Source of the DNA: Clostridia bacterium
GTDB taxonomy: Bacteria > Bacillota > Clostridia > Christensenellales > CAG-138
Reading direction: 5' to 3'
Length of the DNA stretch: 32,848 nt
Assembly (NCBI GenBank): GCA_017554455.1
Contig: JAFZIH010000105.1
Coordinates: forward strand, 1-32,848
Every line of letters begins with the position of its first letter. Position 1 is the first letter of the stretch. Below are positions 2,912-32,848 of the stretch, one piece after another. Under the pieces are notes generated by a model. It was given only the letters and a program-made list of their open reading frames with translations. It was not told where the DNA came from and searched no databases. Made by a program: the position numbers and the translations under genes.

Positions 2912-3023
2912 ACCGTGCCTCCCGTATCTTTGTATATACCTATTGTAACGGGCGGCGCTTCCTTCTGTCAAGCAAAAGCCGCGTCGATCCGCTTTTCTGC
3001 CGTCCGTTCACAATTCGGACACA

Positions 3024-3112
3024 CTATCCACGCTCCTTTTCCACCTTATCCACAAAGTTATCCACAATCCACGTATTTATGGGCGTTTCAAAGGCGGTGT
3101 GCATGTGGATAA
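3024..3112. promoter_or_regulatory. Cluster of DnaA boxes
   Basis: Three perfect 9-mers of TTATCCACA: 3046-3054 (+), 3058-3066 (+) and 3104-3112 (reverse strand, read as TGTGGATAA). A 7/9 match, CTATCCACG, lies at 3024-3032, and a weaker 6/9 match at 3065-3073. The first two perfect boxes are 12 bp apart in the same orientation. DnaA is the replication initiator, and clusters like this occur at origins, titration sites and DnaA-controlled promoters. With no adjacent dnaA/dnaN and no clear AT-rich unwinding element, a DnaA titration or regulatory cluster is more likely than oriC. Confidence 0.7.
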
Positions 3113-3181
3113 GCGCGTCCGCGAGCGTCATTTTTGCGCACTTCGGCTCGGCCGTTTGTCGGTTTTCGGCGAAAAAACTCT

Positions 3182-3209
3182 TTTCAAACGATGCGGAACA
3201 TGGTATTCT
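3182..3209 (+). promoter_or_regulatory. Possible extended -10 promoter of the LRR protein gene
   Basis: TGGTATTCT (3201-3209) is an extended -10. A poor -35, TTTCAA (3182-3187), lies 16 bp upstream. The predicted start of transcription is about 35 nt before the start codon. Confidence 0.35.
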
Positions 3210-3252
3210 GTATATGGAGAAAAATGCGCGATCGCGCAAGAGGGAGGAGCTT

Positions 3253-9650: not shown

Positions 9651-10607
9651 TCATTCGCCCTGATGCACGACGACCTGCGGGAACGGGATTTCGACGCCTT
9701 TTTCGTCAAACAGGACACGGATATCCCGCGCGAGGCGACGCTTGCCGATAAAGAAGTTTTCCTCGGTGACCGAGACGCAGAACCGCAGTTTGACGCCGCT
9801 TTCTCCGAGTTCCTCGACGCCCATATACCTCGGTGCGGACAGATACAGCTCGCTGTTCTCTTCGTACATGCGCTGGAGCTCCGGAGGAAGCATTTTTTCG
9901 AGCGCTTTGAGATCGGTATCGTATGCAACATCGACCTCGCAGATCGCCAGGGAGTCGTTGCGCGAGCGATTCTGAAGATTCCGGATGTCGGAATTGTTGA
10001 CGATTTTCAGGTTTCCGCCTGCGTCTTCGAGGACGGTCGTACGGACGCCGATATTGCGGACCACGCCGCGGAAATCGTCAAGCACGATGATATCGCCGAT
10101 CCCGTACTGTCCTTCAAAGATGATGAAGAAACCGGTGATGATATCCTCGATCAGACTTTGCGCGCCGAAACCGAGCGCGAGACCGAGTATCCCGACACCG
10201 GCAAACACCGCGAGCATGTTGACGCCGAGGATGCCCAGCCCCCAGATGATCGCGACAATTACGGCGATATACTTCAGGATCGCCTTCAGCATCGAGGTCA
10301 CGGTCGCCGTGCGGTTGCTCTTTTCTCCGATCACGTTGAGCAGACAGCGCAGCAGAATATAGAAGAGAACGATAATCGCGACGGCAAGCACCACATTCAG
10401 GAGCCGCACAAGGGATAATTTCGCGTTTCCGTTGATCAGAAAACTCTCGCGCGTGATATCCTGCATCTCCCTGGCGGAGTCCGGGCTCAAAAACCACTGC
10501 GGGTTCAGGAGCAGAACGATCAGTAAGATCGCGATGACCACGCCGACGAACGCGCCGACGCCTTTGCGGCGCTGCTTGGATTTCTTATCCGATGTTGATT
10601 GTTTCAC
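9651..10607 (-). CDS. mscS: Small-conductance mechanosensitive ion channel, MscS family
   Basis: A 318-residue membrane channel that opens under membrane tension to release solutes after osmotic downshift. A basic cytoplasmic start is followed by membrane helices at about 17-36, 64-88, 104-122 and the pore-lining helix with the glycine/alanine-rich [20 protein letters not shown], then [20 protein letters not shown] and the beta domain [22 protein letters not shown]. The soluble vestibule ends at [10 protein letters not shown]. The start is taken as GTG at 10607, with GGGAGGG 8 nt upstream; TTG at 10613 is closer than usual to that SD. The first 23 bp overlap the 3' end of the upstream surface-protein gene, so translation is probably coupled. 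Confidence 0.92.
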
Positions 10608-11847
10608 GTACAAAGCCCTCCCAGTCGTTATAAGTTAATTCGCATTCAAAGCTGTAACTGCCGGACGGCAGCGATTCCGTCATGTTGAAGACAAAGCGGA
10701 CGGTGTTTCCGTCCCGGGTTACGGTCGGTTCCGGTAAAGAAATGTATTCGTAATCCTCGTCGCTGATCACACGGAACAGTGCGTAGTATGCACTGTCAAG
10801 ATCGATTGCATCTATGTCGGCGAGATCGTCATCAACGTTGATGTCCACCGTCAGCACGGGCGAATCCGAAGGACCGCTGACGTTCATACCGCCGAACGTG
10901 AAGAAGTTGCCGCTGTGGACAGACATCTCGCTTGATTCGATCTGTTCGTTGAATCCGTCCGGATAGGTGACGTCGAAGACGAGTTTGACTTTTGCAACAG
11001 CACCGGAGTTGCTGCCCTTGTCGAGGTAGTAATAGAGTTCGTAGTATTCCCATACCTCGTCGTCCCCGCCGCTGTATGTCGTCTGCGCGCTCGTCGGCGC
11101 AAAGCTGCCGCTCTCGTTGCTGTACAGCGTTGCAGTCGCCGATCCGCCTTTCAGATCGTTCAGCTGCATGACGAAGCTGACGCGGATTTCACCGTTGTTC
11201 GGGGAATCGGATTCCCATGCATCCGAGTATGTTTCCTGAATGACCGGTTGATTGTGCGGCACGTATGGCGTCGGCGACGGTGTGGGCGTCGGCGTCGGGG
11301 TCGGCGTCGGAGTCGGTGTGGGCGTCGGGGTCGGCGTCGGAGTCGGTGTGGGCGTCGGGGTCGGCGTCGACGTCGGTGCGGACGTCGGCGTTTTGGTCGG
11401 CGCGGCGGTCGGAGCGACAGTCGGAACGGCGGTCGGGGCTTCCGTCGGCGAAAGTGTGGCAGCCGGAGTCGGAGCAGCGGTCGGTGCGGTTGTGGGATCT
11501 GCCGTCGGAGAAGGCGCGGCGGTTGATGAGGGGGTCGCGTCAGGCGTGACCGAAGGTGTCGGCACCGGCGTGTCGGACGCGGCGGTCGGCGTGACCGAGG
11601 GCGTTACGGTCTGTAACGCGGAGGGGGAGGGCGTTTCATCGACCTCAAGGGCCGCGGGCGGGTTTTCTGCAGGAGAGGAAGGTCCCGCTTTGCCGGGAAG
11701 CAGGACGGATGAGAACAGAAACGTACCCGCCGCCGCAGCCGCGATAAACGGCGCTGCGCTTCCGAACAGTCCTTTTTTGTGTTTTACACCCCGAACGGGC
11801 TCATGCGCAGGCGCGAATTCCGGCGCATGATTGTCAACCTCATACAT
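10585..11847 (-). CDS. Membrane-anchored surface protein with long PT-rich linker, unknown function
   Basis: A 420-residue protein, not recognised by family. A cytoplasmic segment (1-30) leads into a hydrophobic Ala-rich helix (about 31-52). A Pro/Thr/Ala/Ser linker follows (about 55-193), ending in a run of TP dipeptides, and then an extracytoplasmic region (195-420). That region looks like two related beta-rich halves: both have an acidic N-L or D-D patch followed by an ALY/ATLY-type strand and end in a Y-D-V/F-E-C-E-L-T-Y-type strand. The start at 11847 is supported only by a weak GGGG SD. It is the promoter-proximal gene of an operon with mscS, and its stop codon lies inside the channel gene. 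The context suggests an envelope role. Confidence 0.75.
11281..11370 (-). repeat. 30-nt tandem repeats encoding TP dipeptides
   Basis: Two adjacent 30-nt units (11311-11340 and 11341-11370) differ at one base, and a degenerate copy lies before them. They encode the [10 protein letters not shown] part of the linker. The unit length is a multiple of three. Confidence 0.8.
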
Positions 11848-14542: not shown

Positions 14543-15718
14543 ATGATCGGTCCATATCTGTTTCATATCGGCAGCTTCGGCGTTCCGGCGATGGGCGTTT
14601 GCGTGCTCGTCGGCGCGGTGCTTGCCGTGCTTTTAAGCTGGATCCTTCGGAAAAGGACGGCGCTCGACTGGAACGGTGAGTTCGTCGACGCGATCATTTA
14701 CGCGGTATTGCTCGGCTTTGTCGGGATGAAACTCCTCTATTGGTTCGTCACGCCGGGCGTGTTCAAAGCCGCGTTTTCGAACGGCTTCTTCAAAGGGTTT
14801 TTAAGTTTACTCATGGAGGGCATGGTGTTCTACGGCGGACTGATCGGCGGAATCATCGGGATCTTTCTTGTCGCGCGGAAAAAGAAAAAGAACGTCCTCG
14901 AGTTTACGGACCTCTTTGCACCGTGCTTCTGCGTGGCGCACGCGTTCGGGCGCGTCGGCTGCCTGCTCGCGGGCTGCTGCTACGGCGTGCAGATCGGCGA
15001 AACGACGCAGTTCGGTCTGCTGACCTACAAAGGCGCGCTTGCCGTGAAGTATCTGGACGGCGCGATGCGTCTGCCCGTGCCGTTCATGGAAACGGTGTTC
15101 CTGCTCGTGCTTTGTGAAGTGCTCGTGCTGGTGTTCTGCACCGAGAAGCGCCTCGGCACGACGACCGGCTGGTATCTCATTGCGTACGCAGTGTGGCGTT
15201 TCGTGATCGAGATGTTCCGCGGCGACGCGGAGCGCGGCAAGTTCGGCGCGCTCTACACTTCGCAGTGGATCAGCATTCTGATCCTGCTTGCGGGCGTTGC
15301 GATCCTGCTTCTTGCGCGCCGGTTCAACTGGAAGAAGGGCAAGCCGTTCAAGGTCTTCCGGGAGGAGGATCTGACCGTTCCCGAACCGGAAGAAGCCGCA
15401 GAGGAAATCGCAGAGGAAGCGTCTGCGGAAGCGGAAGATGCTGCAGCGGAAGCAATCGAGGAAGCCGGAAAAGCTGAGGAAGCCGCGGCGGAAGCGGAAG
15501 AAATCATCGAAGAAACCGCCGAGGAAGCGACGGAGGAAGCCATGGAAACTGCGGAAGAAGCGGTCGAAGAAGCGGAAGAAATCGCGGAGGAAACGGTCGG
15601 GGAAGCCGCGGAAACTGCGGAAGAAACGGTCGAAAAAACCGAGGAAGCTGCGGAAGACGCGGCGGAAGCGGCAAATGACACGATCGCGAACTGGGTGAAA
15701 GAGACTTTGGGAGATTAA
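14543..15718 (+). CDS. Lgt-like (prolipoprotein diacylglyceryl transferase family) membrane protein with acidic Ala/Glu tail
   Basis: A 391-residue polytopic membrane protein. Residues 1-260 match the Lgt fold: about seven hydrophobic helices, the FYGGLIGGIIG segment (96-106), a GR motif in AFGRVGCLLAGCCYG (135-148), FMETVF (181-186) and YAVWRFVIEMFRGD (215-228). Canonical Lgt moves diacylglyceryl from phosphatidylglycerol to the lipobox cysteine. Here the usual HGG reads YGG and the usual GNFxN after GR reads GCLLAGCC, so it may be a paralogue with altered activity. Residues 273-391 form an Ala/Glu-rich, probably helical, strongly acidic tail that ordinary Lgt lacks. ATG 14543 follows AAAGGAG. 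Single gene with its own promoter and terminator. Confidence 0.8.
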   Translation: MIGPYLFHIGSFGVPAMGVCVLVGAVLAVLLSWILRKRTALDWNGEFVDAIIYAVLLGFVGMKLLYWFVTPGVFKAAFSNGFFKGFLSLLMEGMVFYGGLIGGIIGIFLVARKKKKNVLEFTDLFAPCFCVAHAFGRVGCLLAGCCYGVQIGETTQFGLLTYKGALAVKYLDGAMRLPVPFMETVFLLVLCEVLVLVFCTEKRLGTTTGWYLIAYAVWRFVIEMFRGDAERGKFGALYTSQWISILILLAGVAILLLARRFNWKKGKPFKVFREEDLTVPEPEEAAEEIAEEASAEAEDAAAEAIEEAGKAEEAAAEAEEIIEETAEEATEEAMETAEEAVEEAEEIAEETVGEAAETAEETVEKTEEAAEDAAEAANDTIANWVKETLGD

Positions 15719-18004: not shown

Positions 18005-19891
18005 ATGTCACATCTGACGGATGAAGAACTGTACTACTTTAACGAGGGTACGACGAAGACGGCATACCGTTCGCTCGGCTGCCATAAAGTCGAAAACAAC
18101 GGCGAATGGGTATGGCGGTTTTCCGTGTGGGCGCCGAACGCGAGAAGCGTCGCGGTCGCGGGCGACTGGAACGGCTGGAATCCGAATGCGGACCGGATGT
18201 ACCCTGTCGGCTCGACCGGCGTCTGGGAGATCCTCATCGGCATCGCGCAGGAAGGGCAGCTCTATAAGTACGCGGTCGAGGGACCGAACGGCAACGTTTC
18301 GATGAAGGCGGACCCGTACGCGCAGCGCTGCGAGGTCGCCGGGACGGCGTCGATGGTTTGGGAAGCGGGCACGTTCCCGTGGACAGACGATGCGTATCTT
18401 TCGCGCTGCACGAAGCGGCACAACGAGCCGATGAACATCTACGAGGTGCATCTCGGTTCGTGGCGCAAGGGGCTCGGCTATCGTGAGCTCGCGACGGAAC
18501 TCGTCGATTACTGCGCCGACATGGGCTATACGCACATCGAGTGCATGCCGCTGATGGCGTATCCGTTCAATCCGAGCTGGGGCTATCAGGTCACCGGCTA
18601 CTATGCCCCGACGACGCGCTACGGCACGCCGGACGATTTCCGGTACTTTGTCGACCGCGCGCACGCAAAGGGCCTCGGCGTGATCATGGACTGGGTCCCC
18701 GCGCACTTCACGCGCGACAGCTACGGGCTGGCGTACTTTGACGGCACGCCGACGTACGAGCATCCCGACTGGCGGCGTTCCGAGATGAAGCAGTGGGGCA
18801 CGCTGCTGTTTGACTACGGCCGGACGCAGGTGCAGAGCTTCCTCGTTTCGAACGCCTGCTACTGGCTCAAGGAGTTCCACATCGACGGCCTCCGCGTGGA
18901 CGCGGTGAGCTGCATGCTGTACCTCGATTACGGCCGCAACGACGGCGAATGGCTCCCGAACCAGTACGGCGGAAAGGAGAACCTTGACGCGGTCAATCTG
19001 TTCCACAAGATCTCGGCGGCGATCAAGGAGATCCCCGGCAACAAGATCCTGATCGCGGAGGAGAGCACGGCGTTCCCGTGCGTGACGAACAAGCACGAGG
19101 ACAGCTTGGGCTTCGACTACAAGTGGAACATGGGCTGGATGAACGATATGCTGCGCTATATGCAGATGGATTCGCTCTATCGCAAATGGCACCACGACAA
19201 GCTGACGTTCTCCCTGATGTACGCGTTCTCCGAAAACTACATTCTCGCGTTCTCGCACGACGAGGTCGTGCACGGAAAGCTTTCGATGCTCAATAAAATG
19301 CCGGGCGACTACTGGCAGAAATTCGCACAGCTTCGGCTTCTGTACGCCTATCAGATGGCGCATCCGGGCAAGAAGCTGACGTTCATGGGCATGGAGATCG
19401 GCCAGTTCATCGAATGGCGGTTCGACGAATCGCTCGACTGGATGCTTCTGGACTATCCGAAGCACGCCGAAATGCAGTGCTACGTGCGCGAGATGAACAA
19501 GTTCTATCGCCGCACGCCGACGCTCTACCAGCGCGACGACGACTGGAACGGCTTCGACTGGATCGCGGTGGACGACGCCGTACATTCGATCGCGGCATTC
19601 GTCCGCAAGGATGCGGACGGCAATCCGGTCCTGTGCGTATTCAACTTCACGCCCGTCCCGTGGGACGATTACTGCCTCGGCAGCGAACTGCCCGGTACAT
19701 ATTCCGAGATCTTCTCGACCGACGCGCCGTACTTCGGCGGCGGCGGGATGTCGTTCAACGAGCCGGTCAAGACCGTCGAAGAGCCGTTCGGCAAGTTCCG
19801 TCACCGTCTGCACGTGAAGCTGCCTGCCTACGGCGCGGTGTTCTTCCGGTTCACGCCCGAAAAATCCGACCCGAAAGGAGCAAATGAATGA
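18005..19891 (+). CDS. glgB: 1,4-alpha-glucan branching enzyme
   Basis: A 628-residue GH13 enzyme that makes the alpha-1,6 branches of glycogen. An N-terminal CBM48 module (about 15-120, with [20 protein letters not shown]) is followed by the catalytic barrel: [20 protein letters not shown], then [10 protein letters not shown]. The catalytic triad is D299 (GLRVDAV), E352 (IAEEST) and D419 (SHDEVVHGK). A C-terminal beta domain ends the protein. Length is typical. The ATG follows GAGGTG. First gene of the glycogen operon; its TGA overlaps the glgC ATG (ATGA). Together with glgC, glgD and glgA it stores glucose as glycogen in the cytoplasm. Confidence 0.97.
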
Positions 19892-21126
19892 AAAAGAAAA
19901 TCGTCTGCATGCTGCTTGCAGGCGGACAGGGCAGCCGCCTCGGCGTCCTGACGTCCAGCATGGCAAAGCCGGCAGTCCCGTTCGGCGGAAAGTACCGCAT
20001 CATCGACTTCCCGCTGTCTAACTGCGTAAATTCCGACATCGACACCGTCGGCGTTCTGACGCAGTACCGTCCCCTTGCGCTGAACGCGTACCTCGGCACC
20101 GGTCAGCATTGGGACCTCGACCGCACGGACGGCGGCGTGTTCGTGCTCCCGCCGTACATGACGGAGCACGACGGAAGGTGGTACTCCGGCACCGCGAACG
20201 CGATCTGGCAGAACCGCGCCTTCCTCGATCAGTACGATCCCGATTACGTGCTGATCCTTTCGGGCGATCATATTTATAAGATGGACTACACAAAGATGCT
20301 CAAGTTCCACACGGCAAACAGTGCGGCGGCGACGATCGCGGTGCTGCGTGTCCCGATGGAAGAAGCGCACCGCTTCGGCATCATGAACACGGACGAGAAC
20401 GGCAGGATCGTTTCGTTCGAGGAAAAGCCCAAGGAGCCGAAGAGCAACAACGCCTCGATGGGCATCTATATCTTCAACTGGAAGCTGCTGCGCGACTATA
20501 TGGAACGCGACGACGCCGATCCCGAAAGCGAAAACGACTTCGGCAAGAACATCATTCCGAACATGCTGAACGCAGGCGAAAAGATGGTCGCGTACCCGTT
20601 CGAGGGCTACTGGAAGGACGTCGGAACGATCCAGAGCTTGTGGGAAGCAAATATGGATCTTTTGGGCGAACCGCCGGTACTGGAGCTCAACGATCCCTCC
20701 TGGCGCATCTATACGCGCAACCCCGTCATGCCGCCGCATTATACCGACGCGAGCGCGGACGTAAAGAACAGTCTCGTGACGGAGGGCTGCGTGGTGCGCG
20801 GCACCGTGCGGCATACCGTGCTGTTCTGCGGCGCAAAGGTCGAAGGACGTTCCGAAGTACTCGATTCTGTCGTGTTCCCGAACGCCGAGATCGGTGAAAA
20901 TTGCTTCGTGAAGAAAGCGATCATCGGTGAAAACGCGGTCATCGGCGACAACGTGCAGATCGGCATACCGCCGAAGGAAGGCGAAACGGTCGACAACCGG
21001 CTCACCGGCGACATTGCGCTCATCGGAAACGACGTAACGATCCCCGCGGGTACGGTGATCCCGTGCGGCGCGGTCGTGACCGCCGAAACGATCGGACAGT
21101 TAAGGAACGGAGGAATTAAAGCATGA
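19888..21126 (+). CDS. glgC: Glucose-1-phosphate adenylyltransferase, catalytic subunit
   Basis: A 412-residue ADP-glucose pyrophosphorylase: glucose-1-phosphate + ATP gives ADP-glucose + PPi, the committed step of glycogen synthesis. The nucleotidyltransferase signature is [30 protein letters not shown]; the substrate-binding segments [26 protein letters not shown] and [10 protein letters not shown] follow. The C-terminal left-handed beta-helix with I-G-E-N-x-x-I repeats (about 295-380) is the oligomerising and allosteric part. ATG 19888 overlaps the glgB stop by 4 bp, with AAAGGAG upstream. It probably works as a heteromer with GlgD, encoded next. Confidence 0.97.
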
Positions 21127-22250
21127 ATCAGGAAGCATTCGGTCTGATCTTTACCGGCGAACACAATCCCTACATGCGCGATCTCGTGCTCTCCCGCGCG
21201 GTCGCGGCGGTCCCGTTCGGCGGACGCTACCGCGTCATCGACTTCGCACTGTCCAATCTCGTCAACACCGGCATCCGCAATGTCGGTCTCATCGTGCAGA
21301 AGAACTATCATTCCATGATGGACCACCTCGGCACCGGCAAGGAATGGGACCTGAACCGCAAGCGCGACGGTCTGTTCCTCCTCCCCCCGTTCTCCACCAA
21401 GGACAACACCGGCGTGTATCGCGGCGACATTGACGCGTTCCACTCCGTGATGCAGTACGTGCGCCGTTCGAGCCAGAAATACCTGATCCTCTGCGGCAGC
21501 CATACCGTGTTCAACACGACGTTTGACGCAATATTAAAACAGCATCGCGAGACCGGCGCGGACATCACCATCATGTACAACGAGGATCCGCGCTTCTTCC
21601 CGGAGGAGCAGAACCGCGACCTTCGACTCATCTTCGACGAGGACGGCATGACGGTGAAGCGCCTCGAATGGAACCCGCGCAATCCCGGCTCGAACTTCCG
21701 CTCCTGCGAGGTCACGATCATCGACAAGGACCTGTTCGAAGACCTCGTGGAGGAATCCTATTCGCGCGGCGGCGTCGATTTCGTGCGGGAGATCCTGCTT
21801 CCGAAGGTGAGAGAACTCAAGATCATGGGCTGGCGCTACGACGGCTATGTCGGACGCATCGACTCGATCAACACCTATTTCATGCACAGCATGGAGCTTC
21901 TGAATGCATCCGCGGCAAAGGACCTCTACAATATGCGCCATCCGATCTACACCAAGGTCAAGGACGAGATCGCGTCCGAGTACGGCGAGAACGCCGACGT
22001 GCACAACGTGGTCATGGCGGACGGCTGCGCGGTCGACGGCACCGTCGAGAATTCCATTGTGTTCCGCGGCGTCACCATTGAGCGAGGCGCGATCGTGAAG
22101 AACTCGATCCTGATGCAGGGCGTCACGGTGCGCAAGGGCGCCGTGCTCGACCACGTCATCCTCGACAAGAACGTCACCGTCAACGCGGGGCGGCAGCTTA
22201 CGGGCTACGAGGGCATCCCGCTCGTCTTCCGCAAGAACCTGACTGTCTGA
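21123..22250 (+). CDS. glgD: GlgD, regulatory partner of glucose-1-phosphate adenylyltransferase
   Basis: A 375-residue paralogue of GlgC found next to it in Firmicutes. The N-terminus lacks the GGxGxRL nucleotide loop (it reads [27 protein letters not shown]), consistent with the known view that GlgD is inactive alone and raises GlgC activity in a heterotetramer. [17 protein letters not shown], the [14 protein letters not shown] segment (where GlgC has SGDH) and a C-terminal beta-helix (about 290-365) are conserved. ATG 21123 overlaps the glgC stop by 4 bp, so translation is coupled and equal amounts of the two subunits are likely. A 21-bp gap with an AAAGGAG SD leads to glgA. Confidence 0.95.
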
Positions 22251-22271: not shown

Positions 22272-23831
22272 ATGAAGATACTGTTTGCGGCAAGCGAATG
22301 TTTCCCGTACATCAAGACCGGCGGTCTTGCCGACGTCGTGGGCTCGCTTCCGAAGGAGCTCGTGCACCAGGGCGCAGAGGTCGCGGTCATGATCCCGAAG
22401 TATACGCAGATCGGCGATTACTACATCCTCAAGATGCAGCACGTCTGCCACTTCAATCTGCAGCTCGGAAGCTATTCCGTGTTCTGCGGCATCGACATGC
22501 TCGAACAGGACGGCGTGAAGTTCTACTTCATCGACAACCTCGCGATGTTCGGCGGCGAAAAGATCTACACGGGCGACGAGCAGGAGGGCTTCCGCTTTGC
22601 GTTTTTCTGCCGCGCCGTGCTCGAATCGTTCAAGTATATGAACTATTATCCGGACGTGATCCACTGCAACGACTGGCAGACGGGGCTCATTCCGGTATTG
22701 CTGAACGATCAGTACCGCACGCTCGACGGCTACCGCGACGTGCACACCGTGTTCACGATCCACAACCTGAAATTCCAGGGTATCTTCGACTGGCATCGCA
22801 TCAACAGCGTGCTCGGTCTCAACGAGGGATACTTCTCCCCGAACAATCTTGAGTTCTACGGTCTGCTCTCGTTCATGAAGGCGGGTCTTGTGTTCGCGAA
22901 CCGCATCACGACCGTCAGCCCGACCTACGCGGAGGAGATCCGCACCGGATATTACGGCGAACGTCTCGACGGGCTTCTGCGTGCAAGGCAGAACGTCCTG
23001 TCCGGCATCCTCAACGGAATAGACGGAATATCGTTCGATCCAAGTACAGATATGCATATTCCCGTTCATTTCAACGCGGCGGATCCTTCCGGCAAGAAGC
23101 TGGATAAGGCAGCGCTGCAGGAGGAGTTGGGCCTGCAGAAGCGCGACGTACCGCTGATCGCGATGGTCACGCGCCTGACCGCACAGAAAGGTCTTGACCT
23201 TGTCACATGCGTTCTGAACGATATTATGCGTATGGACGTACAGTTTGTCGTGGTCGGTACAGGCGATCAGTATTTTGAAAACGCCTTCCGTGACGCGCAG
23301 TATCGCTTCCCCGGTCGGTTCGTGTGCTGCCTGAGGCACGACGAGCAGATCGCACGCCGTGTCTATGCCGCGAGCGACATCTACCTGATGCCCTCGCAGT
23401 TTGAGCCGTGCGGGTTGAGCCAAATGATCGCGATGCGCTACGGGTCCATCCCGCTCGTGCGCGAAACCGGCGGACTTCGTGACAGCGTGCTGCCGTATAA
23501 CTGGTACACAGACGACGGCAACGGTTTCAGCTTCCATGATTACAACGCACACGATATGCTGCACGTGCTTGAACATGCGGTCGGTTATTGGTATGACGAC
23601 CGCGAAATGTGGAAGCGTCTGATGAAGCGTGCCATGAAGACAGACTTCTCGTGGGCGGTCTCCGCAAGAAAGTACATGGAGCTTTATCGGAATCTGCTCG
23701 GCCTTCCGGATGAGCCGATCAAGCCGGTACGCAGACGTACGACGCGCACGGTAAAGCCCGCGAGCGAAAAAACGGACAAGAAGACGACCGCAAAGAAACC
23801 GTCGACGGAAAAACCCAAGAAAGCAGAATAA
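22272..23831 (+). CDS. glgA: Glycogen synthase (ADP-glucose), GT5
   Basis: A 519-residue glycosyltransferase that adds glucose from ADP-glucose to the growing alpha-1,4 chain. The N-terminal ADP-glucose motif is KTGGL (15-19) in FPYIKTGGLADVVGSLPKEL. The HCNDWQTGLIP segment, the GILNGID segment and the C-terminal MPSQFEPCGLSQMIAMRYGS plus ETGGLRDSV complete the GT5/GT-B fold, which ends near residue 480. The last ~35 residues are a Lys/Thr/Arg-rich tail (KPVRRRTTRTVKPASEKTDKKTTAKKP...), longer than usual for bacterial GlgA and probably disordered; it may bind glucan or other partners by charge. Last gene of the operon, closed by a terminator. Confidence 0.96.
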   Translation: MKILFAASECFPYIKTGGLADVVGSLPKELVHQGAEVAVMIPKYTQIGDYYILKMQHVCHFNLQLGSYSVFCGIDMLEQDGVKFYFIDNLAMFGGEKIYTGDEQEGFRFAFFCRAVLESFKYMNYYPDVIHCNDWQTGLIPVLLNDQYRTLDGYRDVHTVFTIHNLKFQGIFDWHRINSVLGLNEGYFSPNNLEFYGLLSFMKAGLVFANRITTVSPTYAEEIRTGYYGERLDGLLRARQNVLSGILNGIDGISFDPSTDMHIPVHFNAADPSGKKLDKAALQEELGLQKRDVPLIAMVTRLTAQKGLDLVTCVLNDIMRMDVQFVVVGTGDQYFENAFRDAQYRFPGRFVCCLRHDEQIARRVYAASDIYLMPSQFEPCGLSQMIAMRYGSIPLVRETGGLRDSVLPYNWYTDDGNGFSFHDYNAHDMLHVLEHAVGYWYDDREMWKRLMKRAMKTDFSWAVSARKYMELYRNLLGLPDEPIKPVRRRTTRTVKPASEKTDKKTTAKKPSTEKPKKAE

Positions 23832-23848
23832 TCGACACGTATCATCAC

Positions 23849-23876
23849 AGAGCTGCCGCGTGCAGCTCTTTTTTTT
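23849..23876 (+). terminator. Rho-independent terminator of the glycogen operon
   Basis: AGAGCTGC-CGCGT-GCAGCTCT followed by T8. The last T is also the first base of parS1. Confidence 0.9.
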
Positions 23877-23891
23877 GTTTCACGTGAAACA
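23876..23891. promoter_or_regulatory. parS: parS site 1 (perfect)
   Basis: TGTTTCACGTGAAACA, identical to the B. subtilis parS consensus 16-mer. It is where ParB loads on DNA to form the partition complex. It starts on the last base of the glgA terminator tract, 109 bp before parA. Confidence 0.97.
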
Positions 23892-23913
23892 GTCATATGA
23901 ATGTGTGCAAAAG

Positions 23914-23929
23914 TGTTTCCCGTGAAACA
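23914..23929. promoter_or_regulatory. parS: parS site 2 (one mismatch)
   Basis: TGTTTCCCGTGAAACA, one base off the consensus, 38 bp from site 1. It lies just upstream of the parA promoter, so ParB bound here could also affect parAB transcription. Confidence 0.88.
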
Positions 23930-23950
23930 TTGAAAAATTGCAGAACGGTA

Positions 23951-23979
23951 TTGCAAATTGCGAACCGCTACGTTATAAT
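23951..23979 (+). promoter_or_regulatory. Promoter of parAB
   Basis: -35 TTGCAA (23951-23956), 17-bp spacer, perfect -10 TATAAT (23974-23979), about 20 nt before the parA start. Confidence 0.75.
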
Positions 23980-23999
23980 GAACCCGAAAAGGAGCAGTT

Positions 24000-24773
24000 A
24001 TGGAAAAAATTATTTCAATTACAAATCAAAAAGGCGGCGTCGGAAAGACGACGACCGCGATCAATCTGAGCGCGTGCGTGGCGCAAACGGGGAAACACGT
24101 GCTGCTCGTTGATCTGGATCCACAGGGAAACAGCACGAGCGGACTCGGCGTGACGAAGAAAAAAGAGATGTCGACAAGTTATGACGTGCTGATCGACGAC
24201 TTACCCGCACAGGAAGCGATCCGACATACGATGATCGAAACGTTGGACGTGCTGCCGTCGCGTATCGAGCTTGCCGGCGCGGAAGTCGAACTGGTCTCCA
24301 TGATGGCGCGGGAACAGCGTCTGAAGCAGGCGCTTGCGCCGATCGCGGACAGCTACGATTATATTTTCATCGACTGTCCCCCGTCACTCGGACTTTTGAC
24401 GCTGAACGCGCTGACCGCATCCGATTCGCTCCTCGTGCCGATCCAATGCGAATACTACGCGCTGGAGGGACTTTCGCAGCTGATGAACACAGTCAAGCTT
24501 GTACGGCGCAACCTGAACAACAAACTCGACATTGAAGGCGTCGTACTGACGATGTTCTCGTCACGTCTGAACCTTTGCGTGCAGGTCGTCGAAGAAGTCA
24601 AGAAATATTTCCGCGAGAAAGTCTACAACACGATCATCCCGCGTTCGGTGCGCATGAGCGAAGCGCCGAGCCACGGTCTGCCGATCACGCTGTACGATCC
24701 GCGCAACATCGGTGCAAAGGCATACACCAACTTAGCGGAAGAATTTATCAAACGGGAGGAAGCAAATGGCTAA
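24000..24773 (+). CDS. parA: Chromosome-partitioning ATPase ParA (Soj)
   Basis: A 257-residue Walker-type ATPase that binds the nucleoid as an ATP dimer and works with ParB-parS in chromosome segregation. In Firmicutes, Soj also controls DnaA and thereby initiation and sporulation. The deviant Walker A is KGGVGKTT (11-18). [16 protein letters not shown] carries the Walker A' aspartate, and the Walker B region is [11 protein letters not shown]. The short N-terminus, without an HTH, marks the chromosomal type (type Ib-like length), not the plasmid type Ia. The ATG at 24000 follows AAAAGGAG. It overlaps parB by 8 bp. Confidence 0.97.
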
Positions 24774-25620
24774 AAACAAAGGCCTCGGGCGCGGGCTTGA
24801 TGCGCTTCTGGACGAGATCGATGCGCCGGAACAGGCGCAGAACGGCAAGTTCGAAGTCGATCTTTACGATATTGACACGAATCCGAATCAGCCGCGCAAG
24901 ACGTTCGACCCGGAAAAGCTTGCCGAGCTCGCGCAGTCGATCAAGCGTCACGGCGTCGTACAGCCGATCCTGGTCAAGAAAAACGGCGCACGCTATACGA
25001 TCGTCGCCGGCGAGCGCCGCTACCGCGCAGCGCGTCAGGCGGGTCTGATGACGGTACCGGTTGTGTTGACCGACATCGACGAAGACGCGGTCATGGAGAT
25101 CTCGCTCGTCGAAAACATTCAGCGCGAGAATCTGAACCCGATCGAGGAAGCCGCCGCGATCAAGCTTCTCATGCAGCAGCACGACCTCACGCAGGAGGAA
25201 GTTTCCGAGCGTGTCGGTAAATCCCGTCCCGCGATCGCAAACGCGCTGCGTCTGCTCACGCTTGCGAAGTCCGTACAGAAGCTGATCAAGGACGGACGCC
25301 TTTCCGCAGGACACGGAAAGATGCTTGCGGGCGTCGGCGATCCGCGTGTGCAGATGGAAATGGCGGAAAAATGCGTCGAGAGCGACTGGTCGGTACGCCG
25401 TCTCGAGGACGAGTTGCGCTTTGCAGAAATGCCGAAACGCCGCCGCAAAGAGAAGCCGGAACCGACGCCGGAATTCCGCAACGCCATGCACCGAATGCGC
25501 GCCGAGCTCGGCACGAAAGTCTCCGTGCAGGGCAGCGAGGACAAGGGCAAACTGATCATCCATTACTATACACGTGAGGATCTCGACAGGATCTATCATG
25601 TCATTGTCGGAAACGAATAA
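24766..25620 (+). CDS. parB: Chromosome-partitioning protein ParB (Spo0J)
   Basis: A 284-residue parS-binding CTPase clamp. The N-terminal [11 protein letters not shown] (about 5-15) is the ParA-stimulating segment. The CTP-binding domain has GERRYRA (82-88) and [14 protein letters not shown] (116-129). The central HTH that reads parS is about 142-163 ([20 protein letters not shown]), and the C-terminal dimer domain (about 235-284) ends the protein. Length is normal for Spo0J. It overlaps parA by 8 bp and has GGGAGGA upstream, so the two are co-translated. Its targets are the two parS sites 840-890 bp upstream. The usual oriC neighbours gidB/mnmG are not beside it. Confidence 0.97.
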
Positions 25621-25635
25621 TTAAATATTATAATG

Positions 25636-25662
25636 AAAAAGAACGGTGCGCCGTTCTTTTTT
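25636..25662 (+). terminator. Rho-independent terminator of parAB
   Basis: AAAAAGAACGG-TGCG-CCGTTCTTTTTT, 16 nt after the parB stop codon. Confidence 0.88.
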
Positions 25663-25915
25663 GATTGTCCGCAAGGGCCGGGATCACTGCATAGTCAAGT
25701 CAGTATGTTCCGTATATGCAGTCCAAAAGGGCACGAAGAACCGCGTTGGGAAAAGGCGAATTGTATAGACAAATTTGAATAATATCTTCGCAGATCCGCA
25801 CGGAAAAACCCGACGGGAAACCCTCGGATCCGACGGCGATTCCGTGAATGAAACATGAACAAATACGGTTTTTTCTTTGTACATAATAATATATTATTCG
25901 CAGCGCCTTTCCCAG

Positions 25916-25933
25916 ACCACAACATATTGTGGT
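25916..25933. promoter_or_regulatory. Inverted repeat, candidate operator
   Basis: ACCACAA-CATA-TTGTGGT, perfect 7-bp arms, about 60 bp upstream of the promoter of the giant gene. It may bind an activator or be chance in AT-rich DNA. Confidence 0.35.
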
Positions 25934-25992
25934 GTAAACAGGAAATCGCACATATTTACAAAAAATATACATATAAAAAATACAGTTTTATC

Positions 25993-26021
25993 TTGCATTT
26001 TGCAGATCTTTCATCTATAAT
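25993..26021 (+). promoter_or_regulatory. Putative promoter of the giant surface protein gene
   Basis: Perfect -10 TATAAT (26016-26021) with a weak -35 TTGCAT (25993-25998) at 17 bp. AT-rich DNA upstream may act as an UP element. The weak -35 hints at activation. Confidence 0.6.
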
Positions 26022-26137
26022 AGCATAGGATTATACCATGCCATGCTATAGGTATACATATGCCGTCCCGGGTAAAACCGGGTGAATCAAAACGAATTTT
26101 TCCTTATTAGGGATAACACGAACGGAGGAACAAGAAC

Positions 26138-29100
26138 ATGTCAAAGCTGAACAGGATCCTTTTCGGCAGACGCACCTGGGCGATCATCGTATCGATCATC
26201 ATGGTGCTGCAGCTGTTGCCGCTGGCAACGATTGCTGACAATGCCGAAGGTAACGCCGACGCAGTTGACGTCGTTGCAGTTGAAAGCAACGAAGTCGGCG
26301 TAGACGAAGTCGGATTCAAGCCCAGTCGCGGGAACGACGACGGGGATGTGGGCGGCGGCGCTCTGATCGGCGATCTGCCGACAGATCCGACGCTCCCTGC
26401 CGATCCGGAAGAACCGGCTGAGCCCGCAAATCCGGAAGAACCGGCAGAGCCCGAGAATCCGGAAGAACCGGCGGAGCCCGCAAATCCGGAAGAACCGGCA
26501 GAGCCCGCAAATCCGGAAGAACCGGCGGAGCCCGCAAATCCGGAAGAACCGGCACAGCCCGAGAATCCGGAAGAACCGGCACAGCCCGAGAATCCGGACA
26601 AACCTGTTATTGAAATATACTTCCCCGTAACTTTCGTGGACAAGGATGGAAAAGTTCTTGTCCGTAAGTCAGTTTTGGCGGGAACGGCGATCGGCGAGCT
26701 GCCCGAAGCGCCCGCGGTCGAAGGTCGTGCGTTCATCGGCTGGTATGCCGATAACGGTACGCCCGTGTATGCGACCACGCTGGTCAAGGGCATCATGCGC
26801 ATCGAGCCGAAGTATGCGGGCGACGAAGTGCCGCAGACCGAAATGCCTGCGCAGACCTTCAACGGTACCGCTTCGAACGGCGTGAGCGTGAACGCGTCCG
26901 CTCCGGCAGGCGTCTTCCCCGCCGGCACGAAGATGGTGCTGACCGGCATCAGCGACGCAGAAGCGCTCGAACTTGCGAAGAAGGCAGTCGGCAGCAAGGC
27001 GGTCGACGCGGTTGCGGTCGACATCACGTTCTATGATGCGAACGGCAACAAGATCGAGCCGAAGGACGAGAACAAGGTCCGCGTTTCCATCAACGCCGGC
27101 CGTCAGCTGCTGGGCGACAGCTTCAGCGTCTGGCACGAAGGCGCATCGGGCAGCATGAGCTTGATGGGCAGCGCGACGCCGAACGGCGCGGACTTCGAGA
27201 CCGGCTCCTTCTCTATCTACATCGTCGCCGGTACCGAAGAGGATATGCGTCTGACGGTCTACTTCCACAGATACGGTGAAACGAACCCGGTCATGCAGCA
27301 GATCAACGAGCGCCAGCTGGACAAGATCGAGCAGTATATTTACGATCCCGGCGCAAACACGCCGTCGGACGGTTTCTTCAAGGGCTGGACGAAGGATCCG
27401 AATTATACGGCCGAGACCGAGGGCATGACCATTCAGGGCGTCCGTGATGACATTACCGAGATACTGACCGATCCGGAACACCCGGTCGTTGAGGGATCCG
27501 GCAATGACGAAGTTCACTACTACGCCATGGTCTTCGAATCCTACGTCATTACGTATCTGGACGAGGAAGGCATCATCATCAAGAACGACCAGGTCCTGTT
27601 CCCTTATGGCACCGCGGAAACGCATACGTACGAAGTGAATCTTCCTTATGTACCGAAGTCGGCATACGACGCCTCGACCGGCGCGTCCCGCGAGTTCGGC
27701 GGCTGGCAGCAGCTCCTGCCGGAGGTACAGGGTCAGACCGTGATCTACCAGAACGGCGAAACGATTAACCCCCTTACCGGGGACATCACCTTGGGGGCAA
27801 CCATCAACACCGGCTACTGGCTGATCTTCAACGCAAACCTGACCAACGCGTCCTTCACCGTTCCGGTGTTTGCGCCGTTCGTAAACAATCAGGCGGGCGC
27901 GCCTTCCTCCGTGCCCGAGGATCCCACCTGCCCCGGCTACACCTTCGAAGGGTGGTATACCGAGGACGCTTCGAGCGCGAATGACGGTACGGTCGCGGGT
28001 ACACTGTTTGATTTTACGCAGCCGATGACGAACACCATCACCGTCTACGGCAAGTGGACCAGAAACGCCCAGGCAAGATACAGCGTCATCATCTGGCAGC
28101 AGAGTCTCGAGGGCGGCAATAACTATGACTATAAAGAAACCGTAAAAATCGAAGATGCTACGGTAGGCGAGAGCACTTATCCTGTCTACTCCGGTTCTAA
28201 CAGCACCGGCCAATACTTCGTTATAGCTACGGATGCAGCAGGTGAGTATGGCTATGTTGCATACTTGACCGGGTCGTCGGCACTAACCGAGTATAAGGGT
28301 TTCCATGTCGGCAGCATCGATGATGCAAAGACGGTTGCCGCGGATAACACCACGGTTATCAATGTATATTGTGATCGTAATGAGCACACGCTGACGTTCC
28401 GTTATAATGCTAACGGTACGGTCTATAAGACGATCACGGCGCTGTACGGTCAGAACATCAAGGATAACTTCCCGATCTCCGTCAACGGCAATACGTCTTA
28501 TAGATGGGAACCTCAGAACGGTTCCACGTTCAATGAGGTGCTGGTGTATATCGACGTTATGCCCGACGAAGACGTTACGTTCTATAGAAATTCCAGTAAC
28601 GCGTCTACAAAGACCATCCATTATATGGTCGAAGCGCTGCCCGGTGAGACGCCGACCAGAACCTACAACGGAACGGGCTTTGTGGAGTATAAGGCGGTCG
28701 AGGCCAATTACAACTTCTTTACCGAAGCGGAAGACTATATCAAGCTGGACGGCTATATCAAGGGCACCGACTCCAGTCTTTCGACCACGTATCAGCCGCA
28801 GGCATACAATAACACCGATGGCAATTATCCGGTAAACAATCCGAATTATACAGGAAGTGGGTGCTGGGGCAGTAATGGCAATAATAGTACTCGCAGACAT
28901 GTCTTTGTGTACTATCTCCGTAAAGAATACGAGATCAAGTATGAAGACGGCACGTTCTTTGATCTGACCTGGGACAACGGTCAAAAGTATGTTCCGCTTG
29001 TGGAGCAGCCGACGCGGCAGGACATCGATACCAAGGACGACATCAAGTATCAGACGGACATCAGCGGCGACACCTATAACTTCACGCCCACGCAGAGCAA

Positions 29101-32100
29101 GTTCGTGTTCGCCGGCTGGTATAAGGACGTCGGCTGTAACGAACCGTATACCTTCGGTACCATGCCCTCGCATAACTTCAAGCTTTATGCGAAATGGGTG
29201 ACGAAGGTATATAAGGTAAATCTCGTTCCCAATGACAGTACCGATGACCCGATCCGGTATGTTGACACGAATCAGAGCGAGCACTTCTATGTCGACGTCA
29301 ACGAGAAGATCGCCGACATGTCCGGCGCTGAGCGCAACTACTGGGAACTGGTCGGTTGGTTCACGGATGAGGAGTTCACCCATTCGTACGACTTTGCGGT
29401 CATCCCGATCAACGACAGCTATATCGCGCAGTACGGTGATCCGAATTACCGTGAATCCGACTGGATCGCGACGCAGGGCCAGATCACGCTGTACGCCAGA
29501 TGGCGCAACAAGCTGGTCGGTTCCGACGGCATCAATGTCGTTTACGACATATCAGAAGGAGGCGCCGGTGACGCTCCGACCGACACCGGCAACTATGTCG
29601 ACCTGGCGCAGGCGATCGCGGCCGGTGCATGCGAATCTGCAGAACCGGACAACTACGTCTTCAGCCATTGGGAAGTGCAGCACTGGGACGGAAGCGCTTA
29701 TGTGCCTTCCGGTGTGAACGTATATCCCAGCGAGACGTTCGAAGTCAAGATCGACGATTCCAAGATCGTCAATACGGATACCAATGAGGTCGTTCCGAGG
29801 TCTCAGTATCAGAGTCTCGACCCGAACGCACATTATACCTATACCGTCGTTCTGAAGGCGAGGTTCACGGAGAAGGAAAAGCCCATGGACACCTTCATCC
29901 ACTGGTATGACAACCTCGGCGGATTATACCACACGAGCGATGGTATCAAGATCAATGAAGCGACCGCTATTCCGTCAGCACCGGAACGTACCGGCTATCT
30001 GTTCAAAGGCTGGATCCGCGGTTATGAAGAAGACGGCGAAACGACGACGCTGACCGATCTGTACATCTACTACAACAACGGCAAGTATTACTCTGACGAG
30101 GGATTCTCGAATGAGGTATCCCAGGTCGCGGCGGACGAGCACCTTGTCGGCGACGGCACAAAGCACCATGCGATGTTCGCAAAGTGGGAGCCGATCACCT
30201 ACACCGTGCACTTTGATGCAAACGGCGGAAGCGGCACGCAGATGGACGATCAGGAGTTCACCTACGACGTGGCGCAGAACCTGTCCGAGAACACCTACAC
30301 GCGCGATGGCTATACGTTCCTCGGCTGGGCGACGACCGCAGACGGCAGCAAGGAATATGACGACACGGAGAGCGTCAAGAACCTGACCACAACCAACGGC
30401 GACGTGGTCAACCTCTACGCGGTCTGGGCGCAGGATGAATACAAAGCCATTTTCCACCAGAATTATGAAGGCGCTTCCCCGGAGCCGTATGTGACCCAAA
30501 CCGGTCTCCATTACGGCGATCATGTCACCGATCCGGTATATCCCGAGCGCGAAGGCGAGCCGACCTGCGACTATATCTTCTATGGTTGGTATACGGAGCC
30601 GGAATGCACGCATCAGTGGAACGTTGCCACCGACACGATCCCGCTCATGGACCCGCCGCGCGAGCTGCATCTCTATGCGAAGTGGGTCAAAGAGGAGTAC
30701 TATATCACCGGCGCATTCTGCGGCTGGACAGAACCCGGTAATATGGTTCCGGAAAACGCGCTGATTCTGACGAAGAACGGCGAGGGCGAATGGATCAGAA
30801 CCGGGACCGATTGGAGTGAGAATGGTCAGTTCAAGGTTGTCAGAACCCGGGACGGTGAGATTCAGGAATGGTACAGATCTGATTCTCAGAACTATGTAGT
30901 TGATAAAGACCATGTCGGTCCTTCTACGACCTATTTCCATCCGAGTGGAAATGGAGGTACTCTCGGTTGGGAGTATTCGCATATCCATGTCGAGCTTCCG
31001 CATCCGATCACCATCAGCGTGATTCGTGAGGACGAAGGTACGACCGGCAGCGTTACGGTCAGCGGCACGATCAGCGGCACGGCAGGTGACGAGACGATCG
31101 CAGCGAAAGACTTCACGGTAGCAAATCCGGACGTTCTGACGAATGCAGACTGGAAAACCGGTGTCGAGATCGAACTGCAGATTGCCGATGGATACGTGCA
31201 GGTCGACGACATCACCGGCTGGAGAACGAACTATCCGGATACGAGTGTTGCCGTAAGCAACAACTCGTTCACGATGCCCGACGGCGCGGTTACGCTCCAG
31301 ATCAAGATCAGACCGATCACGTACACGGTGCACTTTGACAAGAACGAAGGCACCGGTGAGCAGATGGCAGATCAGACGTTCACCTACGATGTGGCGCAGA
31401 ACCTGAATGCGAATACATACACCCGCGAGGGCTATACCTTCGCCGGTTGGAACACCGAAGCAGACGGCTCCGGCACGCCTTATGCGGACGAGGCCGACTT
31501 CACCAACAAGTCCACCACGGACGGCGACGAGATCACCCTCTATGCGCAGTGGTCGGTCAATCCGTACGATTACGTCATCCACTACTACCTGAAGGGTACG
31601 GAGATCCGGGTCGCAGACGATACCACCGGCAGCGCGGACTTCGGCGCAACGGTGGATGTTCCGACCGGGAATCCGACGTTCAACGACACGTTCAGCGCGT
31701 TCGATCTGACGCGTGATTCCTCGAATCCGGAAACTTCGATCACGATCAAGACCGAAGGCAACGTCATCATCGTTTACTACACGATTGACCTGACGATCAC
31801 GGCAAACGATCAGACCTATCCCTACAACGGCAATCCGCAGGGCGAGGACAACGCGACCTATACAGCCGCAGCCGACATTGCGGAAAAGGTAACGGTTGAG
31901 GGACTGTACGGCAGCGATACGCTTGCGAGCATCACGCTGGACGGTCAGGAAACGCTTGTCGGCGAGTACGAAAACAAGATCGTTCCGAGTGCGGCAGTAG
32001 TCCATAATGTGGACGGAGAAGTTCCTTCCTATTATACTAGTACTGTCACCTATGTCCCGGGCAAGCTGACGATCACGGAGCCGACGGATCCGGAGTTGGT

Positions 32101-32848
32101 TGTCACGAAGGACGACGCAGAGGCGGACGACTACAAGTACGCGGAAGGCGAAACCGTAACCTTCACGATTACGGTCAAGAACATCTACAATAAGGAAGTC
32201 ACGATCACCCTCACCGAGATCAATGGCGTGACGCTTGCGCAGGATACGTTTGAGAACGTAGCGGCAGGCGAAACGGTCACCACCACGGCGACCTACGTCA
32301 TCAAGCCGGACGATATGGCGACGGGCAGCTTCAAGAACACTGTCACCGCGACGCTGAATGAAAAGACTTACGAAGCGAGCGATACGGTATACACCGAAGA
32401 GATCGACGCGTCGATCGAAGTAACGAAGACGGCGTCGAAGACGACGGATGCAGCAGCCGGTGAGACGATTACCTACACGGTGGTTGTGAAGAACACGGGC
32501 AATGCTACGGTAAGCGGCATTACTCTGGACGATACGCTTGTGACGCTGACGGGCGATAACGCGGAAGCGTTCGACCTGGCGCCGGAAGGCACGAAGACGA
32601 TCACGTACACCTACACCGTCACGCAGGAAGACTTCGACGCAGGCAAGGTAGACAACAAGGTCACTGCGATCGGTAAAGATCCGAAGAACAACGACGTAAC
32701 CGACGATGCAGAGGCGACGGTCACGATGGGTGAGACGTCTGCAGAGCTGAGCATTACGAAGAGCGCGGATCCGAAGACGAACGCAGAAGTCGGCACGGAA
32801 GTGACGTACACGGTGGTCGTAACGAACACGGGCGACGTCAAGGTGAAC
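26138..32848 (+). CDS. Giant secreted surface protein with InlB B-repeats and DUF11-like stalk (cut at right edge)
   Basis: An open frame of 2237 codons without a stop. ATG 26138 has GGAGG 9 nt upstream. In order: signal peptide (1-33, WAIIVSIIMVLQLLPLATIA); acidic spacer; 9-residue PEEPAEPxN repeats (about 89-156); a beta domain with RAFIGWY; and a region common in clostridial surface proteins (about 233-365, VDITFYDANGNKIEP). At least seven Listeria-Bacteroides (InlB B) repeats ending GYxFxGWY...LYAxW follow (about 560-1810). An insert of the type YYITGAFCGWTEPG...WYRS (about 1519-1620) resembles a carbohydrate-binding module. An MBG-like domain (about 1885-1980) is followed by three DUF11-like stalk repeats, EVTKTASKTT...YTVVVKNTG (1986 onward). 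A cell-wall anchor is expected beyond the edge. The function is probably adhesion or envelope structure. Confidence 0.88.
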   Translation, partial: MSKLNRILFGRRTWAIIVSIIMVLQLLPLATIADNAEGNADAVDVVAVESNEVGVDEVGFKPSRGNDDGDVGGGALIGDLPTDPTLPADPEEPAEPANPEEPAEPENPEEPAEPANPEEPAEPANPEEPAEPANPEEPAQPENPEEPAQPENPDKPVIEIYFPVTFVDKDGKVLVRKSVLAGTAIGELPEAPAVEGRAFIGWYADNGTPVYATTLVKGIMRIEPKYAGDEVPQTEMPAQTFNGTASNGVSVNASAPAGVFPAGTKMVLTGISDAEALELAKKAVGSKAVDAVAVDITFYDANGNKIEPKDENKVRVSINAGRQLLGDSFSVWHEGASGSMSLMGSATPNGADFETGSFSIYIVAGTEEDMRLTVYFHRYGETNPVMQQINERQLDKIEQYIYDPGANTPSDGFFKGWTKDPNYTAETEGMTIQGVRDDITEILTDPEHPVVEGSGNDEVHYYAMVFESYVITYLDEEGIIIKNDQVLFPYGTAETHTYEVNLPYVPKSAYDASTGASREFGGWQQLLPEVQGQTVIYQNGETINPLTGDITLGATINTGYWLIFNANLTNASFTVPVFAPFVNNQAGAPSSVPEDPTCPGYTFEGWYTEDASSANDGTVAGTLFDFTQPMTNTITVYGKWTRNAQARYSVIIWQQSLEGGNNYDYKETVKIEDATVGESTYPVYSGSNSTGQYFVIATDAAGEYGYVAYLTGSSALTEYKGFHVGSIDDAKTVAADNTTVINVYCDRNEHTLTFRYNANGTVYKTITALYGQNIKDNFPISVNGNTSYRWEPQNGSTFNEVLVYIDVMPDEDVTFYRNSSNASTKTIHYMVEALPGETPTRTYNGTGFVEYKAVEANYNFFTEAEDYIKLDGYIKGTDSSLSTTYQPQAYNNTDGNYPVNNPNYTGSGCWGSNGNNSTRRHVFVYYLRKEYEIKYEDGTFFDLTWDNGQKYVPLVEQPTRQDIDTKDDIKYQTDISGDTYNFTPTQSKFVFAGWYKDVGCNEPYTFGTMPSHNFKLYAKWVTKVYKVNLVPNDSTDDPIRYVDTNQSEHFYVDVNEKIADMSGAERNYWELVGWFTDEEFTHSYDFAVIPINDSYIAQYGDPNYRESDWIATQGQITLYARWRNKLVGSDGINVVYDISEGGAGDAPTDTGNYVDLAQAIAAGACESAEPDNYVFSHWEVQHWDGSAYVPSGVNVYPSETFEVKIDDSKIVNTDTNEVVPRSQYQSLDPNAHYTYTVVLKARFTEKEKPMDTFIHWYDNLGGLYHTSDGIKINEATAIPSAPERTGYLFKGWIRGYEEDGETTTLTDLYIYYNNGKYYSDEGFSNEVSQVAADEHLVGDGTKHHAMFAKWEPITYTVHFDANGGSGTQMDDQEFTYDVAQNLSENTYTRDGYTFLGWATTADGSKEYDDTESVKNLTTTNGDVVNLYAVWAQDEYKAIFHQNYEGASPEPYVTQTGLHYGDHVTDPVYPEREGEPTCDYIFYGWYTEPECTHQWNVATDTIPLMDPPRELHLYAKWVKEEYYITGAFCGWTEPGNMVPENALILTKNGEGEWIRTGTDWSENGQFKVVRTRDGEIQEWYRSDSQNYVVDKDHVGPSTTYFHPSGNGGTLGWEYSHIHVELPHPITISVIREDEGTTGSVTVSGTISGTAGDETIAAKDFTVANPDVLTNADWKTGVEIELQIADGYVQVDDITGWRTNYPDTSVAVSNNSFTMPDGAVTLQIKIRPITYTVHFDKNEGTGEQMADQTFTYDVAQNLNANTYTREGYTFAGWNTEADGSGTPYADEADFTNKSTTDGDEITLYAQWSVNPYDYVIHYYLKGTEIRVADDTTGSADFGATVDVPTGNPTFNDTFSAFDLTRDSSNPETSITIKTEGNVIIVYYTIDLTITANDQTYPYNGNPQGEDNATYTAAADIAEKVTVEGLYGSDTLASITLDGQETLVGEYENKIVPSAAVVHNVDGEVPSYYTSTVTYVPGKLTITEPTDPELVVTKDDAEADDYKYAEGETVTFTITVKNIYNKEVTITLTEINGVTLAQDTFENVAAGETVTTTATYVIKPDDMATGSFKNTVTATLNEKTYEASDTVYTEEIDASIEVTKTASKTTDAAAGETITYTVVVKNTGNATVSGITLDDTLVTLTGDNAEAFDLAPEGTKTITYTYTVTQEDFDAGKVDNKVTAIGKDPKNNDVTDDAEATVTMGETSAELSITKSADPKTNAEVGTEVTYTVVVTNTGDVKVN
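26402..26605 (+). repeat. 27-nt tandem repeat encoding PEEPAEPxN
   Basis: Six full units of 27 nt (starting at 26420, 26447, 26474, 26501, 26528 and 26555) plus partial units at both ends. Units differ at one to four bases, with the GAG/CAG and GCA/GAG codons varying. They form a rigid acidic proline-rich spacer after the signal peptide. Confidence 0.92.
30194..30430 (+). repeat. InlB B-repeat copy A
   Basis: Encodes TYTVHFDANGG ... YTFLGWATTADGS ... LYAVWA, about 79 residues. It is close in sequence to the copy at 31316-31555, sharing TFTYDVAQNL-type and TYTRxGYTF segments, which points to internal duplication. Confidence 0.85.
30690..31000 (+). other. Possible carbohydrate-binding-like domain inside the giant protein
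   Basis: Residues about 1519-1620 read YYITGAFCGW ... NGEGEW ... GQFKVVRTRDG ... EWYRSD ... and look like the starch/glucan-binding beta-sandwich modules in which YxVxGxFNxW opens the domain and FKVV...WY lies in the middle. It stands between two InlB repeats and differs from them in composition. The call rests on pattern resemblance only. Confidence 0.4.
31316..31555 (+). repeat. InlB B-repeat copy B
   Basis: Encodes TYTVHFDKNEG ... YTFAGWNTEADGS ... LYAQWS. It is the closest relative of copy A at 30194-30430, separated by the CBM-like insert and a short unassigned segment. Confidence 0.85.

Follow-up and report, generated by a model that had tools for sequence, protein, structure and literature searches.

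Two parS sites that lie between the glycogen gene glgA and the partition gene parA, in a 32,848-nucleotide contig of a Clostridia bacterium (the whole stretch analysed, hereafter the window), very probably serve as the centromere cluster of a chromosomal ParABS system of the ordinary kind, set in a gene neighbourhood that is unusual at the level of the genus. This reading draws on the following features, for which the parS palindromes carry no strand:

18005-19891, forward strand, glgB (NCBIfam match above the curated cut-off)
19888-21126, forward strand, glgC (NCBIfam match above the curated cut-off)
21123-22250, forward strand, glgD (NCBIfam match above the curated cut-off)
22272-23831, forward strand, glgA (NCBIfam match above the curated cut-off)
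23849-23876, forward strand, terminator-like hairpin and T run (8-bp stem, 5-nt loop; hairpin proper 23849-23869)
23876-23891, no strand, parS1, a perfect 16-bp palindrome, TGTTTCACGTGAAACA, 0 mismatches
23914-23929, no strand, parS2, TGTTTCCCGTGAAACA, one mismatch, in the half facing parS1
23951-23979, forward strand, promoter-like site for parA (TTGCAA at 23951-23956, 17-bp spacer, TATAAT at 23974-23979)
24000-24773, forward strand, parA of the soj type (257 amino acids, Walker ATPase)
24766-25620, forward strand, parB of the spo0J type (284 amino acids, GERRYRAAR motif; TIGR00180 at 191 bits against a cut-off of 58)

The two sites are 38 bp apart from start to start, with a gap of 22 bp, and are the only parS-like sequences in the window at up to three mismatches, where 0.11 would be expected and none of 100 shuffled sequences held two; the pair is beyond chance. 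Up to three mismatches were allowed in the window, two in the assembly from which it comes and one in related genomes, the consensus used being the bacterial one that is also given in PMC10197239; parS1 matches it perfectly and parS2 with one mismatch, as in other ParABS systems. The first-pass annotation had claimed a perfect parS behind glgA and a one-mismatch site 38 bp further on, the first starting on the last T of the glgA terminator and the second standing just before the parA promoter. All of this was borne out, with a terminator-like hairpin and a promoter-like site in the places named, position 23876 being common to the T run and parS1, and 21 bp separating parS2 from the -35-like box. 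The genome-wide count that it had proposed left the pair as the sole sites, with no third parS at up to two mismatches, in the 2.29-Mb, 88%-complete assembly, and since this is the only parS cluster found there, the pair is probably the main centromere. One alternative is that the pair serves mainly as an operator for parAB and that the working centromere sites are elsewhere, degenerate or unassembled. Indeed, parS2 adjoins the parA promoter-like site, the assembly is incomplete, and up to seven sites per genome occur among the matches listed for other genera of the family. However, each of the seven genus genomes with a completeness of 90% or more and a contamination of 5% or less has matches, the places listed being those of the pair, and the single extra site in the genus (genome G005) belongs to a second par locus; we regard a mainly regulatory pair as very unlikely.

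The proteins encoded downstream have the expected features of a chromosomal ParABS system. ParA begins directly at the P-loop region, with Walker A present and an N-terminal DNA-binding domain absent, and the best 25 of 30 matches to ParA-family models all lie below the models' own cut-offs. ParB has a parB_part domain and parS-type specificity residues, including the R and G at positions described as absolutely conserved in ParB (PMC7383237), positions that were equated here by motif and not by alignment to Caulobacter ParB. Nucleation of ParB at the pair would follow from the consensus of the sites together with these residues. Close relatives of this ParB are encoded in records of uncultured Clostridia, some of goat omasum and sheep rumen. 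Against the Noc model TIGR04285 it scored 220.9 bits, below the cut-off of 315, and thus does not qualify as Noc.

A role for a Noc-like paralogue deserves separate mention because the inner half of parS2 carries a Noc-type cytosine, which led to the proposal that parS2 is a hybrid site, bound by both ParB and such a paralogue. That cytosine is recognised by an arginine of Noc (PMC7383237), a second ParB-family match of 115-176 bits is present in 20 of the 23 genomes of the genus, and the three such proteins that were scanned (from G022, G013 and, in another genus, G054) have TIGR04285 as their best match. Their scores of 219, 296 and 311 nevertheless fall below the cut-off of 315, the window's own assembly has no match of the 115-176-bit class but just a weaker one on contig C147, and parS2 retains the G typical of parS at its other specificity position and is perfect in seven of the 21 genomes that have the pair. 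Sites resembling the canonical Noc 16-mer were found in only 7 of the 23 genomes, one or two in each, at one or two mismatches. A hybrid parS2 is therefore highly improbable, and control of the pair by Noc was set aside on account of the rarity of such sites. At the Noc-type position, judged by eye, 15 Noc-like proteins of the genus have Q in seven, D or E in seven and P in one. The distant second ParB-like protein in the window's own genome (contig C147, 9185-10084) has DNA methylase- and recombinase-like neighbours, again by eye, and because of these its gene is perhaps on a mobile element.

Sites at no more than one mismatch were found in 21 of the 23 genomes of the genus, 19 of which have exactly two and one of which (G005) has three; G022 has one such site and another at two mismatches, and in G003 (74% complete) and G007 (59% complete) there was no parS at up to one mismatch. 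The pair lies upstream of parA in all 21, at 34-70 bp from start to start, a position that is kept while spacing and flanks vary. By eye, parS2 stands just before a -35-like box across the genus and the promoter-like boxes of parA align, with variation; a consensus scan of 23700-26200 gave four promoter-like sites against 2.0 expected, which alone is near the shuffled expectation. The second glg-parS-parAB locus of G005 (L085, on contig C41) has a single parS and a ParB 75% identical to that of the window, and this bin may mix two species. In wider samples, each of which includes the window's own genome, a close pair is present in 65 of 396 order-level genomes (one site of the pair being perfect), in 48 of 243 from the class and in 29 of 398 from the phylum. 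The first-pass annotation had considered that the same spacing in nearly all Clostridia would make the arrangement ordinary; with a close pair in 48 of the 243 class genomes, pairing is neither unique nor universal, and by its distribution close pairing is a recurrent variant. A published comparison of 12 gut bacteria gives one to ten parS sites for each, mostly clustered (PMC10197239).

All parS mismatches in the genus lie in the halves that face each other, the outer halves being perfect in 21 of 21 pairs, and the changes reconstructed on a tree number nine inner and none outer (two-sided p 0.004, in a post hoc test with a tree from the same locus). Over the loci compared, 65 pairs gave 48 inner against 17 outer, including 19 against 0 for the genus; a site that belonged to an array of at least three was counted in two pairs. 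Hand counts with the window's own genome left out were 9 inner against 3 outer in the class sample, 4 against 3 in the phylum sample and 12 against 9 in the order sample, samples that overlap in part; the order count covered pairs with one perfect site and the four central positions only, three rows changed on both sides having been left out. We do not propose that parS pairs in general are restricted to base changes in their facing halves; outside the genus the bias is weak. Reports on half-parS binding bear on such inner-half drift: binding of this kind is reported for P. aeruginosa, and B. subtilis ParB was not seen to show it (PMC10419367).

The overlaps and short gaps between glgB, glgC, glgD and glgA argue for a single operon, and glgA, its last gene, adjoins the pair in 16 of the 21 genomes in which sites were found, or at 17 loci when the second locus of G005 is counted. 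The gene order joining glycogen storage to chromosome partition, as first described from the window, is real in these genomes. The pair has no adjoining glgA in G008, G010, G012 (whose contig has just 222 bp upstream), G013 and G015; glgA is on other contigs in four of these five, and G008 has two copies on the same contig, 32 and 43 kb off. The gene upstream of the pair in G013 encodes an arginine deiminase, G008 and G015 share the same protein start and, by eye, the end of the upstream gene in G012 is similar to the G013 type and that in G010 is different. No glgA was found near parS in 16 stretches from 15 other genera of the family; parA is present in 15 of these stretches and neither gene in one, and the G046 stretch begins 93 bp before the site. 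As far as sampled, the glycogen neighbour appears peculiar to part of the genus, and on these assemblies the link concerns gene order in a single genus. A midpoint-rooted parA-parB nucleotide tree separates the two neighbourhood types. A single origin of the link was not adopted, its support in a ParA protein tree (32 rows, with G004 left out as a fragment) being weak (66/25).

It might be supposed that ParB, as it spreads outward from the pair, silences or adjusts expression of the glycogen operon and so ties storage to the state of origin segregation. The end of glgA is 44 bp from parS1, the whole glg set falls inside the roughly 15 kb over which ParB spreads (PMC9242446), most genus genomes with sites retain the link (the 16 of 21 above), and in S. 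pneumoniae mutation of one parS raised the expression of comCDE, 5 kb away (PMC7022226). By analogy, ParB would be expected to spread over the glg operon and the parA promoter, but any neighbouring gene would be reached in this way. Moreover, the operon starts about 5.9 kb from the pair, five genus genomes with the pair carry glgA elsewhere, a synthetic promoter placed in the S. pneumoniae region gave no response (PMC7022226) and no title on a parS-glycogen link appeared among the literature matches listed. We consider such control very unlikely. The fuller version, in which ParB at the single cluster spreads over glgA to glgB and lowers glycogen synthesis during segregation, with the terminator and parS1 as a two-way insulator, is very unlikely too. 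The glycogen link itself is probably without special function.

Between glgA and parS1 the window has the form of an intrinsic terminator, a GC-rich hairpin followed by a T run, and no Rfam element was found anywhere in the window at gathering scores. A 35-nt piece with the hairpin folds at -12.8 kcal/mol (z -3.1, with 1 of 200 shuffles as good) and for a longer piece of 54 nt z is -1.8 (10 of 200 as good); the consensus scan of 23700-26200 found five terminator-like sites against 4.0 expected, which is not significant alone. What raises the weight of the hairpin, given a window scan near the shuffled expectation, is that it is kept in relatives. At 15 of the 17 glg-linked loci of the genus, 0-6 nt separate parS1 from the end of a hairpin with a T run, and the stems differ in sequence among species while pairing is kept; the two exceptions are G004, with a gap of 38 nt, and G017, which the search did not accept, though by eye its hairpin reaches the site. 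None was found in the 60 bases searched upstream at the five genus loci without the glg link. Among 14 loci of other genera, 12 have a site upstream of parA, and a hairpin is present in two of these 12 (G027 with a gap of 1, G030 with a gap of 11). As a control, mononucleotide shuffles of each upstream stretch produced a hairpin in 0-9 of 200. We predict that the hairpin is the glg terminator. Standing against parS1, it would stop glg transcription from crossing the parS sites and the parA promoter, and the hairpin is most simply read as shielding the centromere and this promoter from glg transcription, a role to which we give about an even chance. Insulation cannot be essential, since no such hairpin stands beside parS in the five members of the genus that have a different gene upstream.

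If the pair acts as a centromere in the manner known for the family, ParB would bind each palindrome, load as a CTP clamp and slide outward, and ParA would move the resulting ParB-parS complex. As parS2 directly precedes the promoter-like site across the genus, loading of ParB on it may block the parA promoter and limit the expression of parAB, and autoregulation through parS2 seems to us about as probable as its absence. There is a likeness to P. aeruginosa, where ParB represses genes beside the intergenic parS3 and parS4 and parS likewise lies beside promoters (PMC5521831), but the genes repressed there are not parAB, and for the window we only infer repression. Loss of ParB is accompanied by minor transcript changes in several species, P. 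aeruginosa excepted (PMC7022226), so that autoregulation cannot be assumed.

With the chromosomal ParABS of Bacillota (soj-spo0J-parS) the window shares the parA and parB genes, the 16-bp parS consensus, a small ParA and the CTP-binding motif of ParB. It differs in having just two sites, both in the same intergenic gap and 22 bp from each other, and in having glgBCDA as a neighbour, not gidB-noc; B. subtilis has several scattered parS sites. The locus of G054, with the order rsmG-noc-parS-parA-parB, resembles the window in having a pair of parS sites ahead of parA and parB, but next to them it retains rsmG and a Noc-like gene, where the window has glg genes. In that genome rsmG (gidB) is about 1 kb from parS, with the Noc-like gene between, and in the other genomes with a shared contig the distance is at least 3.5 kb among the matches listed. 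Hand comparison of the rsmG and parS positions among the matches listed placed both on one contig in at least 21 genomes, no more than 20 kb apart in at least 17 and farther in at least four. The suggestion that glg had taken the place of a usual gidB-parAB order holds only in so far as parAB is usually near gidB in the family, but the two are rarely directly side by side. In the nine glg-linked genus members in which rsmG was found it lies on another contig than the pair, and it was not found in the window's own assembly.

Of 13 genus genomes searched, seven have dnaA on the contig with the sites, 4-57 kb away (about 4 kb in G008 and G015, 5 kb in G013, 7 kb at the second locus of G005, 45 kb in G009, 49 kb in G019 and 57 kb in G022); the window's own assembly carries dnaA on a different contig (C144). 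The cumulative GC-skew curve falls to a sharp low at dnaA in G008, is almost flat in G019 and in G022 shows a shallow low near dnaA, with a second dip about 25 kb on. No DnaA-box cluster was found beside dnaA in G022, where 255 kb hold three perfect boxes (at 44.3, 44.3 and 80.1 kb), and dnaA is not always at the origin in gut bacteria (PMC10197239). The parS sites are likely to lie near the replication origin. If the centromere reading is right, two sites in one intergenic gap would make a compact natural centromere, and its neighbourhood would have changed within one genus while the pair itself did not. The genus would then offer a small comparative set for asking which effects parS position and neighbouring transcription have.

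Elsewhere in the window, the last frame (26117-32848, 2244 codons, open at the contig end) has a signal-like start and EEPAEP repeats and, by eye, looks like a large bacterial surface protein. An lgt-like gene at 14543-15718, whose best models are just below or below cut-off, has a long glutamate- and alanine-rich C-terminal tail. Two further proteins (2896-4515 and 10585-11847) contain long threonine-proline runs, followed in the first by leucine-rich-repeat-like sequence, all as judged by eye.
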